From Candidatus Sysuiplasma superficiale (GTDB lineage: Archaea > Thermoplasmatota > Thermoplasmata > Sysuiplasmatales > Sysuiplasmataceae), in NCBI GenBank assembly GCA_019720975.1, contig JAGVSJ010000004.1, forward strand, positions 1-64,000: a DNA stretch of 64,000 nucleotides, read 5' to 3'. Shown in pieces: positions 10,499 through 16,035 of this stretch. The notes under the pieces are model-generated. The model had not been told where the DNA came from and searched no databases. It saw only the letters and a program-made list of their open reading frames with translations. A program made the position numbers and the translations under genes. Within the stretch, counting starts at the first letter, position 1, and each line of letters starts with the position of its first letter.

Positions 10499-11515
10499 TT
10501 GGGAGTGAACATTGCACCTATCCTTGAAAAGGATTCGATAGAACTGGAATCGCTTGCCGGAAGGGTAATTGCCATAGATGCCTACAATGCGATATACCAG
10601 TTCGTTTCGGCGATCAGGCAGCCTGATGGCAGGCCACTTTCGGACACCGGCGGCAGACCCACATCTCACCTGATGGGGCTGCTGCACAGAAACAGCCGTC
10701 TGATGCTTGCAGGAATTAGGCCAGTGTACGTATTTGACGGGATACCCAACATTTTGAAGTCGGGGACACTGGAAAAGAGGAAGGAGGCAAAGATCAGGGC
10801 CGAGGCAAAATATGCGGAAGCAATCGAGAAAAAGGACATGGAAAAGGCACACAGCTATGCAATGCAGACAAGCAGACTGACAGAGGAAATCATAACAGAG
10901 TCAATGAGGATGCTTGACCTGCTTGGCATCCCGTACCTCACTGCACCGGAGGACGGGGAGGCTCAGGCGAGCGTCATGGCTGCACGTGGCGATGTGTGGG
11001 CAATTGGTTCCCAGGATTTCGACAGCCTGCTCTTCGGGGCACCCAGATGCGTAAGGAACCTAACGCTTTCCTCAAGGCGGAAGATGCCTGGCAGCAGAAC
11101 ATACAGGGAGATAGGAGTTGAGATGGTTTCACTCGATGCAAATCTCAGACGACTTGAAATAACAAGGGAGCAGCTCGTGGATCTGGCGATACTCGTTGGC
11201 ACAGATTTCAATGAGGGGGCCGAAGGCATAGGCCCGAAGAAGGCACTGAAGATCGTCAGGGAAAAGGGGAAAATAGAGAACACACCGTATCTTGCAGAAA
11301 TAGGTGAGAAGACAGTTGAAGAGGTGCGCTCAATTTTTCTGAGACCGAAGTTTATAGAGGAGTACAGACTTGAATGGAAGAAACCGCAGCGCGAAGAACT
11401 TATTGAATTTCTCTGCAGAGAACACGATTTTTCTGTTGAAACAGTTTCGAAGGTTGTCGACAGCCTTTCCGCAGTTGACATAGTGTCCCAGCAGAGCCTT
11501 GACAAATGGTCATGA
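10499..11515 (+). CDS. fen: Flap endonuclease 1
   Basis: Structure-specific 5' nuclease that removes flaps at Okazaki fragments and in repair, acting with PCNA. The TTG start gives the family-typical MGVN N-terminus, whose second-residue glycine is part of the active site. N and I nuclease blocks carry the acidic metal ligands: AIDAYNAI, YVFDGIP, PEDGEAQAS, GSQDFDSLLFG and GTDFNEGAEGIGPKKAL (helix-hairpin-helix). The C-terminus ends QQSLDKWS, resembling a PCNA-interacting peptide but lacking the usual double aromatic. The 338 residues are normal. Confidence 0.95.
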   Translation: MGVNIAPILEKDSIELESLAGRVIAIDAYNAIYQFVSAIRQPDGRPLSDTGGRPTSHLMGLLHRNSRLMLAGIRPVYVFDGIPNILKSGTLEKRKEAKIRAEAKYAEAIEKKDMEKAHSYAMQTSRLTEEIITESMRMLDLLGIPYLTAPEDGEAQASVMAARGDVWAIGSQDFDSLLFGAPRCVRNLTLSSRRKMPGSRTYREIGVEMVSLDANLRRLEITREQLVDLAILVGTDFNEGAEGIGPKKALKIVREKGKIENTPYLAEIGEKTVEEVRSIFLRPKFIEEYRLEWKKPQREELIEFLCREHDFSVETVSKVVDSLSAVDIVSQQSLDKWS

Positions 11516-11582: not shown

Positions 11583-14500
11583 GTGCTTTCGATGATAAAG
11601 AAAGCTGAAGGCAGCTATAACCCCGCAAAACTGGAGAATGAGGTTTCGCAGTACTGGAGCGCGAACGACATTTACGGTAAGCTGCGAAGCATGCGTAGCG
11701 AGGGGCCGAAGATATACTTCCTCGACGGGCCGCCGTACACCACGGGAGACATACACCTCGGCACCGCCCTGAACAAATCACTGAAGGATCTGAGAATAAG
11801 ATACTGGCGAATGAATGGATACAACGTGCGCGACCAGCCGGGATGGGACATGCACGGATTGCCCATAGAGGTGAACGTCGAGCGGTCCTTCGGCATCAAG
11901 TCGAAGAAGGAAATAGAGAAGGTGGGTATCGACAAGTTTGTTTCTGAATGCAAGAAGTTCGCACTTAAGAACCTGAACAATATGACACAGCAGTTCATCA
12001 GGCTGGGTGTCTGGATGGACTGGCAGAAACCGTACATGACAATAGAACAGTCTTTCACCCTGACAACCTGGCTCGCACTGGAGAAAGCAAGGGAGAACGG
12101 CCTGCTCTTCCAGGGAGAAAGAAGCACACAGTGGTGTTACAGGTGCGGAACCGCTCTGGCCGAAGCTGAGATTGAATATGTCGAAAGGGAGGATCCCAGC
12201 GTATACGTGAAGATGCCCGTAATTGACAGTGAATTCTCACTGCTTATCTGGACGACTACCCCCTGGACCATACCGGCAAACATGGCAGTGGCGGTACACC
12301 CCGAAAAGAATTACGCCGAGGTGGAATACAGGAAGAGCGGCAATGTGACAGAGAAGCTAATTGTTCTTGAGGAGAAGGCTGAGGAGATAGGCGCGCTCAC
12401 TGACCAGGAAGAGTATGAAATAATCAGGGTCATCAGGGGAAGCGATCTGGTCGGGACAGCCTACAGATTCCCGCTTGAGGGTTTTGCAAACAGCGGCAGG
12501 AGGAGCGAGTGGAGCTGGAAGGTCATACCTTCTGAAAGCGTGGAGATGGAATATACAGGGCTTGTGCACACCGCACCGGGGCATGGACCTGAGGATTTTG
12601 AGCTGGGGAAGAAATTCGGGATCGAGATATACTGCCCCGTTGCGGATGACGGAACATACACCGAGGAAGCCGGCAGAGCGCTGAGAGGCAGGAAGGTAAC
12701 ACAGTGCAACGAAACAATCCTTGAAGAGCTTTCAAAGAGGGGACTTCTCTACCATTCAGAGAGAATTGAGCACAGATACGGGACCTGCTGGCGCTGCAAG
12801 ACACCCGTAATATACAGATCAACGAAGCAGTGGTACATCAGAGCGACAGAACTGAAGGCCAGAATGCTCGAAGAGATTGACAGAATCAAGTGGATACCCG
12901 ACTGGGCCGGATCCTCAAGACAGGCGGAGTGGGCCAGGAATCTCAAGGACTGGTGCATATCGAGGCAGAGATTCTGGGGTACACCCATTCCCATATGGAA
13001 ATGCTCCGGATGTGAGAGCGAAAAACTGGTGTCTACAATCGCTGAGCTCTCCGAAGGAAGGAATTACACAAAGGGAATGGATCTTCACAGGCCCGATATA
13101 GATGCCGTGACGTTTGAATGCAGCAAATGCCATGGCGAGATGAGAAGGGTTCCTGATGTTCTCGACGTGTGGTTCGATTCCGGCGTCTGTTCATGGGCAT
13201 CACTTAATTACCCCGGCGACAGAAAGGATTTTGAAAAATGGTGGCCGGGGAAGTGGATAACAGAGGCGGGAGACCAGACCAGGGGGTGGTTTAACTCCCA
13301 GATAACCACATCACTGATAATGTTCAACAGGGCACCCTTCGAATCCGCAATGCTGCACGGCTGGGTCAATGATGCGCGCGGGAGACAGATGCATAAGAGC
13401 CTGGGCAATGTCGTTGATCCAATGAAGATCATAGAAACAGAGGGTGCCGATCCGCTTCGTTTCTACCTTCTGAGTTCGAAGGCTCCGTGGGACGACCTTT
13501 CCTTTCAGCCGGATGGGCCGAAGAATGCCAGGAGAACGCTGAACATACTCTGGAATGTCTACAATTTCGCATCTACCTACATGTCCCTTGATGAATTCAA
13601 ACCGTCTGATGTCGACTGGAAGAAATTATACGCGGACATGAAGACAGAAGACAGATGGATACTTTCAGAAACGCAGCACGTGATAAAGGAGGCGACGTCG
13701 TATATGGAGACATATGAGTTCCACAAGGCGCTGCGTTCCATCGAGAAATTCCTTGTGGACGATCTGTCGCACCTTTATGTGAGGATGGTCAGAGACAAGA
13801 CCTGGACGGAGGAGGAGGATCCGGAGAAGGAGGCAACCTACACAATACTTCATTACGTTCTCACTGTTATTACAAAGCTTCTCGCACCTTTCACCCCTTT
13901 CATATCCGAAGAGATTTTCCGCGCTATGAACCCGGAGGCAATGTCTGTGCATCTGTCCACATGGCCCTCACCCATGGACGAACTGAGGGACGAAAAACTT
14001 GAAGGGGACATGGCGCTCGCAAGGGAGATCATAGAAAGCGTTCTCAAGGCGCGGCAGGAAACAGGGATGAAGCTGAGATGGCCTCTTCCCAGGATCATAA
14101 TCAAGCCTGCAGACGATGAGAGCAGAAGGAGCATAGGGAGGATGCTCGATATAATAGAAAAGCAGACAAATGCGAAAAGCAGCAGGCTGCTGCAGGTGGG
14201 CCAGGAATGGGAAGAGCTGGTGCTTACCGTCGTGCCAAACCCTAACGCGATTGGAAAGGTGTACAGGCAGTGGTCAGGGAAGATAGCCATGATGCTTCGC
14301 GCCAGACCGGCGGCTGAGGTCATATCTGGAATAAAGAAGGGCTCCTACACCCTTGGAATCGAGGGGCAGACGATAAAGATAGAGGAGGACATGGTTTCCT
14401 TTAGTTACACCCTCCCGAGAAACGTCGCGCAGATAGATGTGAAATCGGCGACGCTCTATGTGGATTTCAACATGGACAGGAAGCTTGAGCTTGAGTCTCT

Positions 14501-15296
14501 TTCGAGGGAAGTGATGCGTAGGATCCAGAAAATGAGAAAGGATCTTGGCCTGAATGTCGATGAGTTCGTCATCGCGCAGATATCAACCTCCGGTTCGCTT
14601 CTTGAAGCAATAATCGAATGGAACTCCACAATTGCGTCAGAGTGCAGAATCAGATCGCTCAATATCGTTGACAGGGCTGAGGGGGAGATAAGGGAGGCCT
14701 GGAGGATTGACCAGAACGAGCTTGTGATTGCGCTCTCCAGGGAGAACGCAATCAGGAAGGAAGCCCCCGAACACCCCGAAATTGAGGCGGCGCAGGCAGC
14801 TGTCCCGGAGGAAACGGCGAATGATGGAGCGGAAGAGGAAACTATGGAGATAGAAACAGGGGAGACATATGCCATATTCGAAGACAGGGCAGACAAGGCA
14901 ATGGCGATCTTCAGATCAGTATTGGAGGGAGGTGTTCCGGGCTTCCTTCTCACAAGGGAATATCCGGACAAGATAAAGAAGAAATACGGCGTCGCTGACT
15001 GCACTGTAAAGTGGCTGACTGGCGTTGGCGGAGAGAACACCGTCAAGCCCAACGACCTTGAAACAATATCGCTTCAGGTCAACAGTTTCTTCTCAAAGGA
15101 GGCTGGAGTGGCACTCATTGACGGAATTGAGTACCTGATATCAAACAACAGCTTTTCCACTGTTGTCAGGCTTCTGCAGTACCTGAGAGATGCTGCTGCA
15201 AAGACAGGATCGATACTGCTGCTTTCAGTGAATCCGCAGTCGATGAATGAAAAGGACCTCACAGTTCTGCAGAAAGAGGTTGACAGAATCATTTAG
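11583..15296 (+). CDS. ileS: Isoleucyl-tRNA synthetase with C-terminal DUF835 domain
   Basis: Charges tRNA-Ile. Residues 1 to about 1045 form a standard archaeal/eukaryal-type class I IleRS: HIGH variant HLGT near 58, CP1 editing domain, KMSKS variant MHKS near 603-606, anticodon-binding and C-terminal domains. The chain then runs through an acidic, Ala/Glu-rich linker (about 1050-1092) into an extra 145-residue domain (about 1094-1237; bases from 14862) containing GFLLTREYPDKIKKKYG, VKWLT, LIDGIEYLISNNSF and LLSVNPQSMNEKDL. Those blocks are the hallmarks of DUF835, a domain otherwise attached to archaeal PAS or membrane signalling proteins. No stop or frameshift separates the parts. A box around 11543-11555 and AGGGAG precede GTG 11583; ATG 11592 is possible. 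Confidence 0.93.
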   Translation: MLSMIKKAEGSYNPAKLENEVSQYWSANDIYGKLRSMRSEGPKIYFLDGPPYTTGDIHLGTALNKSLKDLRIRYWRMNGYNVRDQPGWDMHGLPIEVNVERSFGIKSKKEIEKVGIDKFVSECKKFALKNLNNMTQQFIRLGVWMDWQKPYMTIEQSFTLTTWLALEKARENGLLFQGERSTQWCYRCGTALAEAEIEYVEREDPSVYVKMPVIDSEFSLLIWTTTPWTIPANMAVAVHPEKNYAEVEYRKSGNVTEKLIVLEEKAEEIGALTDQEEYEIIRVIRGSDLVGTAYRFPLEGFANSGRRSEWSWKVIPSESVEMEYTGLVHTAPGHGPEDFELGKKFGIEIYCPVADDGTYTEEAGRALRGRKVTQCNETILEELSKRGLLYHSERIEHRYGTCWRCKTPVIYRSTKQWYIRATELKARMLEEIDRIKWIPDWAGSSRQAEWARNLKDWCISRQRFWGTPIPIWKCSGCESEKLVSTIAELSEGRNYTKGMDLHRPDIDAVTFECSKCHGEMRRVPDVLDVWFDSGVCSWASLNYPGDRKDFEKWWPGKWITEAGDQTRGWFNSQITTSLIMFNRAPFESAMLHGWVNDARGRQMHKSLGNVVDPMKIIETEGADPLRFYLLSSKAPWDDLSFQPDGPKNARRTLNILWNVYNFASTYMSLDEFKPSDVDWKKLYADMKTEDRWILSETQHVIKEATSYMETYEFHKALRSIEKFLVDDLSHLYVRMVRDKTWTEEEDPEKEATYTILHYVLTVITKLLAPFTPFISEEIFRAMNPEAMSVHLSTWPSPMDELRDEKLEGDMALAREIIESVLKARQETGMKLRWPLPRIIIKPADDESRRSIGRMLDIIEKQTNAKSSRLLQVGQEWEELVLTVVPNPNAIGKVYRQWSGKIAMMLRARPAAEVISGIKKGSYTLGIEGQTIKIEEDMVSFSYTLPRNVAQIDVKSATLYVDFNMDRKLELESLSREVMRRIQKMRKDLGLNVDEFVIAQISTSGSLLEAIIEWNSTIASECRIRSLNIVDRAEGEIREAWRIDQNELVIALSRENAIRKEAPEHPEIEAAQAAVPEETANDGAEEETMEIETGETYAIFEDRADKAMAIFRSVLEGGVPGFLLTREYPDKIKKKYGVADCTVKWLTGVGGENTVKPNDLETISLQVNSFFSKEAGVALIDGIEYLISNNSFSTVVRLLQYLRDAAAKTGSILLLSVNPQSMNEKDLTVLQKEVDRII

Positions 15297-16035
15297 CCCG
15301 GCCTGAAATACCGAGAGAATGGAGGCTGCCCAGGAGGCCCGGAACAGTTTCAAATTCGCCCATTTCCTGCGGCAGAACCCATCTGTACTCAGTGTGTTCC
15401 CAGTCAAGGGATATGTCCTCCTTCCCGCCATGCACGTCAAAGAGGAAAGGATACGATATCCATGCAGTCGTTCCCTTTCTGGTCACCACCGGATCGCCCT
15501 TCTTCAGCAAAAGCGGCTCGCTTAGTGATATTTCCTCCTTCAGCTCCCTGTATGCTGTGATCTCAGGCGATTCGCCCTCCTCAACATAACCGCTGACAGC
15601 GGCCCACTTGCCCTGAAATGAACCGACCCTGTCGCTTCTCTTAAGCAGAAGGAATTTTTCGCCTGACTTCACTATGCAGTTTACAACCCTCCTTCCGGTT
15701 ACATCGCTCAGTGTGACGTTGCCGAGGTCTCCTTCAACAACGACCCTGTCCCCGTTCTCAAAAAAACTGCTCCTGAGCCCGCAGACAGCCGGTATCTCTG
15801 CCGAAGAAAGCATGTCTGATATCCCCTCAAGGGGATCGTCGCAGAATATAAGGACGGCGCATCCCGGCACCTGACCCGATTTCAGCCTGTCGGCAAATGC
15901 CTTCTGCATGCCGGCTCGCACACCAAACACCGGATGTTCTCCGCAATCCGCAACAGGTATCCCCCTTTCAGAAACGAGGACAATTGTCCCTGAATAGTGG
16001 CCCGAAGCAAGACTCCTGCCTCTAAGATTCAGCAT
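15289..16035 (-). CDS. Nudix hydrolase with N-terminal swivelling domain
   Basis: The C-terminal half (about 110-248) holds a Nudix box GYVEEGES...RELKEEIS, with the essential REx2EE intact and the last glycine replaced by serine. It would hydrolyse a nucleoside diphosphate-linked substrate that I cannot name. The N-terminal 110 residues resemble the swivelling phosphohistidine domain of PEP-utilising enzymes (ASGHYSGTIVLV; IPAVCGL; NGDRVVVEGDLGNVTL), but the catalytic Gly-Gly-x-Thr-Ser-His segment is absent, so a phosphotransfer role is unlikely. Its 3' end overlaps ileS by eight bases in convergent orientation. A box CTAAAATTG (16057-16065) 26 bases upstream indicates a leaderless ATG at 16035. 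Confidence 0.75.
   Translation of the reverse strand: MLNLRGRSLASGHYSGTIVLVSERGIPVADCGEHPVFGVRAGMQKAFADRLKSGQVPGCAVLIFCDDPLEGISDMLSSAEIPAVCGLRSSFFENGDRVVVEGDLGNVTLSDVTGRRVVNCIVKSGEKFLLLKRSDRVGSFQGKWAAVSGYVEEGESPEITAYRELKEEISLSEPLLLKKGDPVVTRKGTTAWISYPFLFDVHGGKEDISLDWEHTEYRWVLPQEMGEFETVPGLLGSLHSLGISGRAK

Follow-up and report, generated by a model that had tools for sequence, protein, structure and literature searches.

The isoleucyl-tRNA synthetase (IleRS) gene of the window, the 64,000-nucleotide stretch of Candidatus Sysuiplasma superficiale DNA analysed here, continues in frame into a C-terminal DUF835 domain, so that the enzyme carries, according to structural models, a flexibly tethered KaiC/ArlH-fold domain that has no P-loop. 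Comparable tails are found across the class Thermoplasmata, including on IleRS copies that have lost their catalytic motifs. The explanation that we favour, with a probability of about one half, is that the tail connects a body that binds tRNA-Ile with a signalling assembly of the KaiC/DUF835 kind, whose partners and signal we infer.

The fusion gene and its tail domain

The features of the fusion gene and its two neighbours are as follows (window coordinates).

10499..11515, + strand: FEN1-like nuclease, upstream neighbour (named by eye)
11583..15296, + strand: IleRS-DUF835 fusion gene, 1,237 aa (Pfam and NCBIfam)
11646..13484, + strand: class I catalytic domain with CP1 editing insert, residues 22-634 (Pfam PF00133, tRNA-synt_1)
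13650..14093, + strand: anticodon-binding domain (Anticodon_1), residues 690-837 (Pfam PF08264, 129.8 bits)
14148..14741, + strand: IleRS C-terminal domain DUF5915, residues 856-1053 (Pfam PF19302, 56.5 bits)
14742..14843, + strand: acidic disordered linker (composition, low pLDDT, architecture of relatives)
14844..15293, + strand: DUF835 domain, predicted inactivated KaiC/ArlH (RecA-like) fold without Walker A (Pfam, AlphaFold, structure search)
15289..16035, - strand: Nudix hydrolase, convergent downstream neighbour (Pfam PF00293, synteny)

The 11583-15296 frame is open throughout and the region contains no N or ambiguity codes; it begins with GTG, while comparison with relatives makes an in-frame ATG at 11592 the likelier one. 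The first-pass annotation had placed DUF835 on the C-terminus of a complete IleRS, and both halves of that assignment exceed the cut-offs of their profiles. TIGR00392 (ileS, NCBIfam) matches over its full length with 936.5 bits against a curated cut-off of 621.4, and the proposed profile search of the tail gives a significant match of PF05763 (DUF835) to residues 1101-1232 (window 14883-15278; E 1.2e-30), with 106.5 bits against a gathering threshold of 33.1 and profile positions 3-135 of 136 covered. The interval originally given for the tail, 14862-15296, is correct, with the folded domain beginning slightly earlier, at about 14844, and the linker is acidic as described, with 13 D/E versus 2 K/R in 41 residues.

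Motif alignment identifies a HIGH-type motif HLGT (about 11754-11765), a KMSKS-type motif QMHKS in which K605 is kept (about 13386-13400), and the editing motifs WTTTPWT and HTAPGHGPEDF, both intact. The source genome is a 2.06 Mb metagenome-assembled genome (MAG) of 100 contigs, 95% complete, and only one IleRS was found in it; the tail therefore sits on a housekeeping enzyme. Because no other IleRS was found in this 95% complete genome, the window protein is probably the isoleucine-charging enzyme for tRNA-Ile.

AlphaFold models the DUF835 tail with high confidence (25 tails; pLDDT 95.1, pTM 0.90), and the structure prediction that had been suggested for it yields an ArlH/KaiC fold. The best solved structural match is the archaellum ATPase ArlH/FlaH (4yds; Z 15.9 over 142 residues, 2.4 Å), and KaiC (8dba; Z 15.2) and yeast Elp456 (Z 14.0) also match. 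In the 25 aligned tails, the stretch that joins strand 1 to helix 1 contains no Walker A motif (GxxxxGK[ST]) or glycine-rich P-loop; as modelled, the tail is an inactivated RecA-like core of the KaiC/ArlH type. A prediction spanning residues 851-1237 is poor for the C-domain (mean pLDDT 68, 7 sequences) and gives low pLDDT over about residues 1056-1087, where the linker is modelled as disordered.

Conservation and distribution of the tail

The relatives in the window's family, f1, bear directly on whether the fusion is genuine. All five that are fully covered (66-77% identical) carry the tail in frame, which answers the survey of related genomes called for by the first-pass annotation; a sixth relative is cut at its start with the tail visible, and a seventh is cut before the tail. 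The five fully covered relatives also share the gene order DUF7121 - FEN1 - IleRS - Nudix. The Nudix gene is conserved beside live tailed IleRS; in f3, f19 and named Methanomassiliicoccales loci, too, the tailed gene has FEN1 and/or Nudix as neighbours. A separate tail gene joined to IleRS by a sequence error is accordingly refuted, as the f1 relatives share the tail, its frame and the gene order. The source genome is a 100-contig MAG, which would leave some room for an assembly or sequencing artefact, but the same frame recurs in each relative with full coverage and in numerous independent assemblies, some of them single-contig chromosomes, and we give the artefact a negligible chance.

A tail-only alignment scan of about 85,000 species genomes returned 80 loci. 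An IleRS core precedes the tail in at least 73 of them: in 71 core and tail share one frame, and in two the core is broken up by frameshifts. The remaining seven lie at contig ends. Nearly all carry the label Thermoplasmatota, Methanomassiliicoccales or Euryarchaeota. The sole bacterium-labelled locus, L142 ('Terrabacteria group bacterium ANGP1'), is probably on a misbinned archaeal contig. Two candidate stand-alone DUF835 genes, L107 and L137, were rejected, each having a frameshift-split IleRS just upstream.

IleRS frames of at least 1,200 aa occur in about 58 of 110 Thermoplasmata-class genomes, a length count in which DUF835 is confirmed in part only. The long f9 open frames G079 and G072 are not counted as tails; G079 has no DUF835. 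Outside the class, nearly all IleRS frames in 59 genomes drawn from the phylum are shorter than 1,160 aa; three frames there (G127, G132 and G152) are long, and DUF835 is absent from the six native-type IleRS checked. Two unusual IleRS candidates proved spurious: the split IleRS of G021, two genes 840 kb apart, is a scaffold-gap artefact in which both ends run into N, and the 1,438-aa 'long IleRS' of G015 is a ValRS-like ORF (by eye) with an accidental upstream open frame.

In a tree rooted on type-2 IleRS, the native IleRS of other classes fall outside the class clade (support 93). According to tree and distribution together, the tail was acquired close to the root of the class Thermoplasmata, in the form HhH - zinc ribbon - DUF835. 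Families f6 and f21 are without a tail; f6, probably Methanomethylophilaceae, nests inside the tailed clade in the same tree and has therefore lost it.

In most families the tail is longer than that of the window protein: DUF835 follows a variable number of HhH domains and zinc ribbons and, in some cases, TPR-like repeats. Family f1 has lost its HhH domains and zinc ribbons, and an acidic disordered linker of about 32-40 residues stands in their place, so that the f1 tail is a remnant of the longer HhH - zinc ribbon - DUF835 tail. DUF835 is also the least conserved domain within f1 (58% versus 73% for the catalytic part). Because of this, and of the missing HhH and zinc ribbon, the ancestral role of the tail may be reduced in f1. 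The same observations, together with the tail-less state of f6 and f21, could be taken to mean that the tail is decaying in f1 and retains little function. We consider this quite improbable, given that every f1 genome covering the 3' end of the gene encodes an intact domain of roughly 145 residues with invariant core positions.

Tailed copies without catalytic motifs

Tailed IleRS lacking HIGH and/or KMSKS occur in f4, f7, f11, f16, f22 and f25 (motif alignment), with the long reading frame retained. A seventh family, f13, is represented by a remnant on the single-contig 1.49-Mb chromosome of G019 (presumably Aciduliprofundum boonei), comprising the anticodon domain, C-domain, HhH, zinc ribbon and a diverged DUF835, with no Pfam match to tRNA-synt_1. 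We refer to the tailed IleRS of these seven families as dead, their inactivity being read from motifs. A second, type-2 (MupA/B-like) IleRS was found in all seven, and in the five families aligned (f4, f7, f11, f13 and f16) it has both HIGH and KMSKS. The reverse case is seen in f3 (L066, L067, L072), where the tailed IleRS is intact and KMSKS of the type-2 IleRS is degraded.

In the type-2-rooted tree all 17 dead copies group together (SH-aLRT 99), in a clade that spans six families and is embedded in the live tailed copies. In a first tree they formed two groups, which became one after native outgroups and more dead copies were added; both trees are quick searches without bootstrap, so that a single loss of catalysis, as opposed to two, is a provisional reading. 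The dead clade keeps the anticodon domain, the C-domain and the tail. Mean identity across live families is 56% for the catalytic part, 47% for the anticodon domain, 45% for the C-domain and 51% for DUF835, and across dead families the corresponding values are 32%, 33%, 37% and 57%. In these alignments, constraint has shifted from the enzyme to the tail in the dead copies, of which DUF835 is the most conserved part, although in some f4 members it is weak (65 bits) or undetected, with HhH and zinc ribbon still there. As the dead clade lost its catalytic motifs yet kept the tail, the role of the tail is separable from charging, and the sequences indicate that the tail is selected for something other than charging. 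The dead clade with its surviving tail thus constitutes a natural experiment that parts the two. The pattern suggests a second job for tailed IleRS, perhaps to report on isoleucine supply.

HhH domains and zinc ribbons typically bind nucleic acids. Their presence in most families raises the alternative that the tail does so too and assists in recognising or releasing tRNA-Ile; the dead copies would then be trans-acting tRNA-Ile chaperones or editing deacylases. Part of the editing motifs is indeed kept in dead f11 and f16, and Elp456, the RecA-like ring that matches the tail fold, binds tRNA (PMC10018365). However, the f1 tail has neither HhH nor zinc ribbon and its linker is acidic, and in f4 and f7 the editing motifs are gone. 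This alternative appears improbable to us.

Several neighbouring genes were recorded at tailed loci. A class II AspRS/AsnRS-like gene adjoins the dead tailed IleRS in f7 (L056, L057) and f13 (L173), and a winged-helix regulator of roughly 360 aa lies beside it in f11 (L052:3121-4245) and f16 (L054:8821-9891). In f14 and f18, tailed IleRS is immediately preceded by a gene that ends in a DUF5915 copy behind CARDB-like repeats (L045:1-4053, L047:8741-12499, L050:9423-13499); in f15 (L192) this gene is located elsewhere.

The KaiC/DUF835 network and known systems

The source genome encodes nine DUF835 domains over the cut-off, the IleRS tail included; the other carriers include GAF-like-repeat, exported membrane and DnaA-like proteins. 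Two of these (L079:5215-7260, - strand; L080:1090-3228, + strand) fuse a bacterial-type DnaA ATPase domain to DUF835 (Bac_DnaA, 157 bits, tested on L079), and bacterial-type DnaA is not expected in archaea. A further DUF835 lies in a 474-aa protein (L003:943-2367, + strand) whose N-terminal repeats are bactofilin-like by eye. Exported single-pass membrane proteins whose outer domain is large and whose DUF835 is cytosolic (topology by eye) are encoded at L077:3610-6057 (- strand) and, in relatives, at L190 and L191.

A DUF835 tree pairs the f1 IleRS tail with the cytosolic DUF835 of the family's exported membrane protein as sisters (100/99), which implies that the module was copied or moved between IleRS and the membrane protein. 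This relationship, the flexible linker and the precedent of CAAD, which anchors cyanobacterial synthetases to thylakoids (PMC4893482), fit the main rival to our explanation, a localisation or docking arm that would hold IleRS at a membrane, the ribosome or a multi-synthetase site and channel Ile-tRNA, with no information passed. The tail itself, modelled as a soluble alpha/beta fold, contains no membrane segment, and an arm serving charging alone should not outlive catalysis, whereas the tail is best conserved in the dead copies. Docking covers the live copies and not the dead ones, since the tail persists without catalytic motifs, and we rate it as rather unlikely. Sensory coupling of charging and a docking arm, both raised in the first-pass annotation, are each kept as candidate explanations.

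Genomes with tailed IleRS encode 4-15 DUF835 and 4-25 KaiC-like (PF06745) genes. The f6 genomes, in which the tail was lost, have 0/0/1 DUF835 and 0/0/0 KaiC-like, and the f17 genomes, also without a tail, have 0/0 and 2/2, respectively; in f9, several DUF835 are kept without tailed IleRS. The joint loss of the tail, DUF835 (almost) and KaiC-like genes is a correlation over few independent events. Under the signalling-assembly explanation, DUF835 would be an interaction module joining IleRS to KaiC-like ATPases and other DUF835 proteins, and occupancy of the synthetase by charged or uncharged tRNA-Ile would be reported to, or controlled by, the KaiC/DUF835 network. More speculatively, the partner in f1 could be the exported single-pass membrane protein with the sister cytosolic DUF835.

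Taken a step further, tailed IleRS might be an archaeal amino-acid-starvation sensor, in which a KaiC-like hub would read out what state tRNA-Ile is in on a synthetase or pseudo-synthetase body; we offer this as a tentative possibility. Were it true, archaea would have in this sensor an IleRS-based equivalent of GCN2 or RelA. To our knowledge, amino-acid shortage sensing in archaea is poorly known and no RelA-type or GCN2 pathway has been established there, and tailed IleRS provides a concrete candidate with a testable partner set. For DUF835, whose function has so far been obscure, attachment to an enzyme of known ligand supplies a biochemical handle.

Appended-domain synthetases and dead synthetase paralogues are already known. 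The IleRS fusion with an inactivated KaiC domain extends class-wide, an unusually broad appended-domain case with a built-in separability test. The first-pass annotation knew of no described case of an IleRS-DUF835 fusion, and that statement stands within our limited search of 5.4 million papers, only one of which mentions DUF835, in the passages retrieved not together with IleRS; the search likewise returned nothing relevant on IleRS with HhH or a zinc ribbon. PMC5847659, citing Makarova et al. 2017 mBio, describes DUF835 as an inactivated KaiC (iKaiC) domain of response regulators, which, together with the other DUF835 proteins of the source genome, agrees with the earlier view that DUF835 is otherwise attached to archaeal signalling modules. 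These iKaiC proteins share the Pfam family and the inactivated KaiC fold with the IleRS tail, and Thermoplasmata are among the hosts listed in that paper; the domain is there borne by response regulators with REC and PAS, whereas here it is borne by a housekeeping synthetase in most of a class.

The CAAD-tailed cyanobacterial synthetases (PMC4893482) likewise bear a recurrently acquired appended domain, one that alters enzyme location. CAAD, however, is a membrane-targeting domain, whereas the DUF835 tail is predicted to be a soluble KaiC-like fold, and nothing membrane-spanning appears in the modelled window tail. The dead copies resemble synthetase paralogues without aminoacylation, namely Sulfolobaceae LeuRS-I, which does not aminoacylate but retains binding of its tRNA and plays a critical part in optimal growth, and bacterial HisZ, a non-aminoacylating regulatory subunit (PMC9437257), to the extent that their own inactivity can be judged from motifs. 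Unlike LeuRS-I and HisZ, tailed IleRS is the sole enzyme in many families, and its dead clade bears a signalling-fold tail. GCN2 is a HisRS-like domain on a kinase. Tailed IleRS has no kinase, its DUF835 is without Walker A and a sensing role is here conjectural, but it shares with GCN2 the attachment of a synthetase-derived tRNA-binding body to a signalling module.
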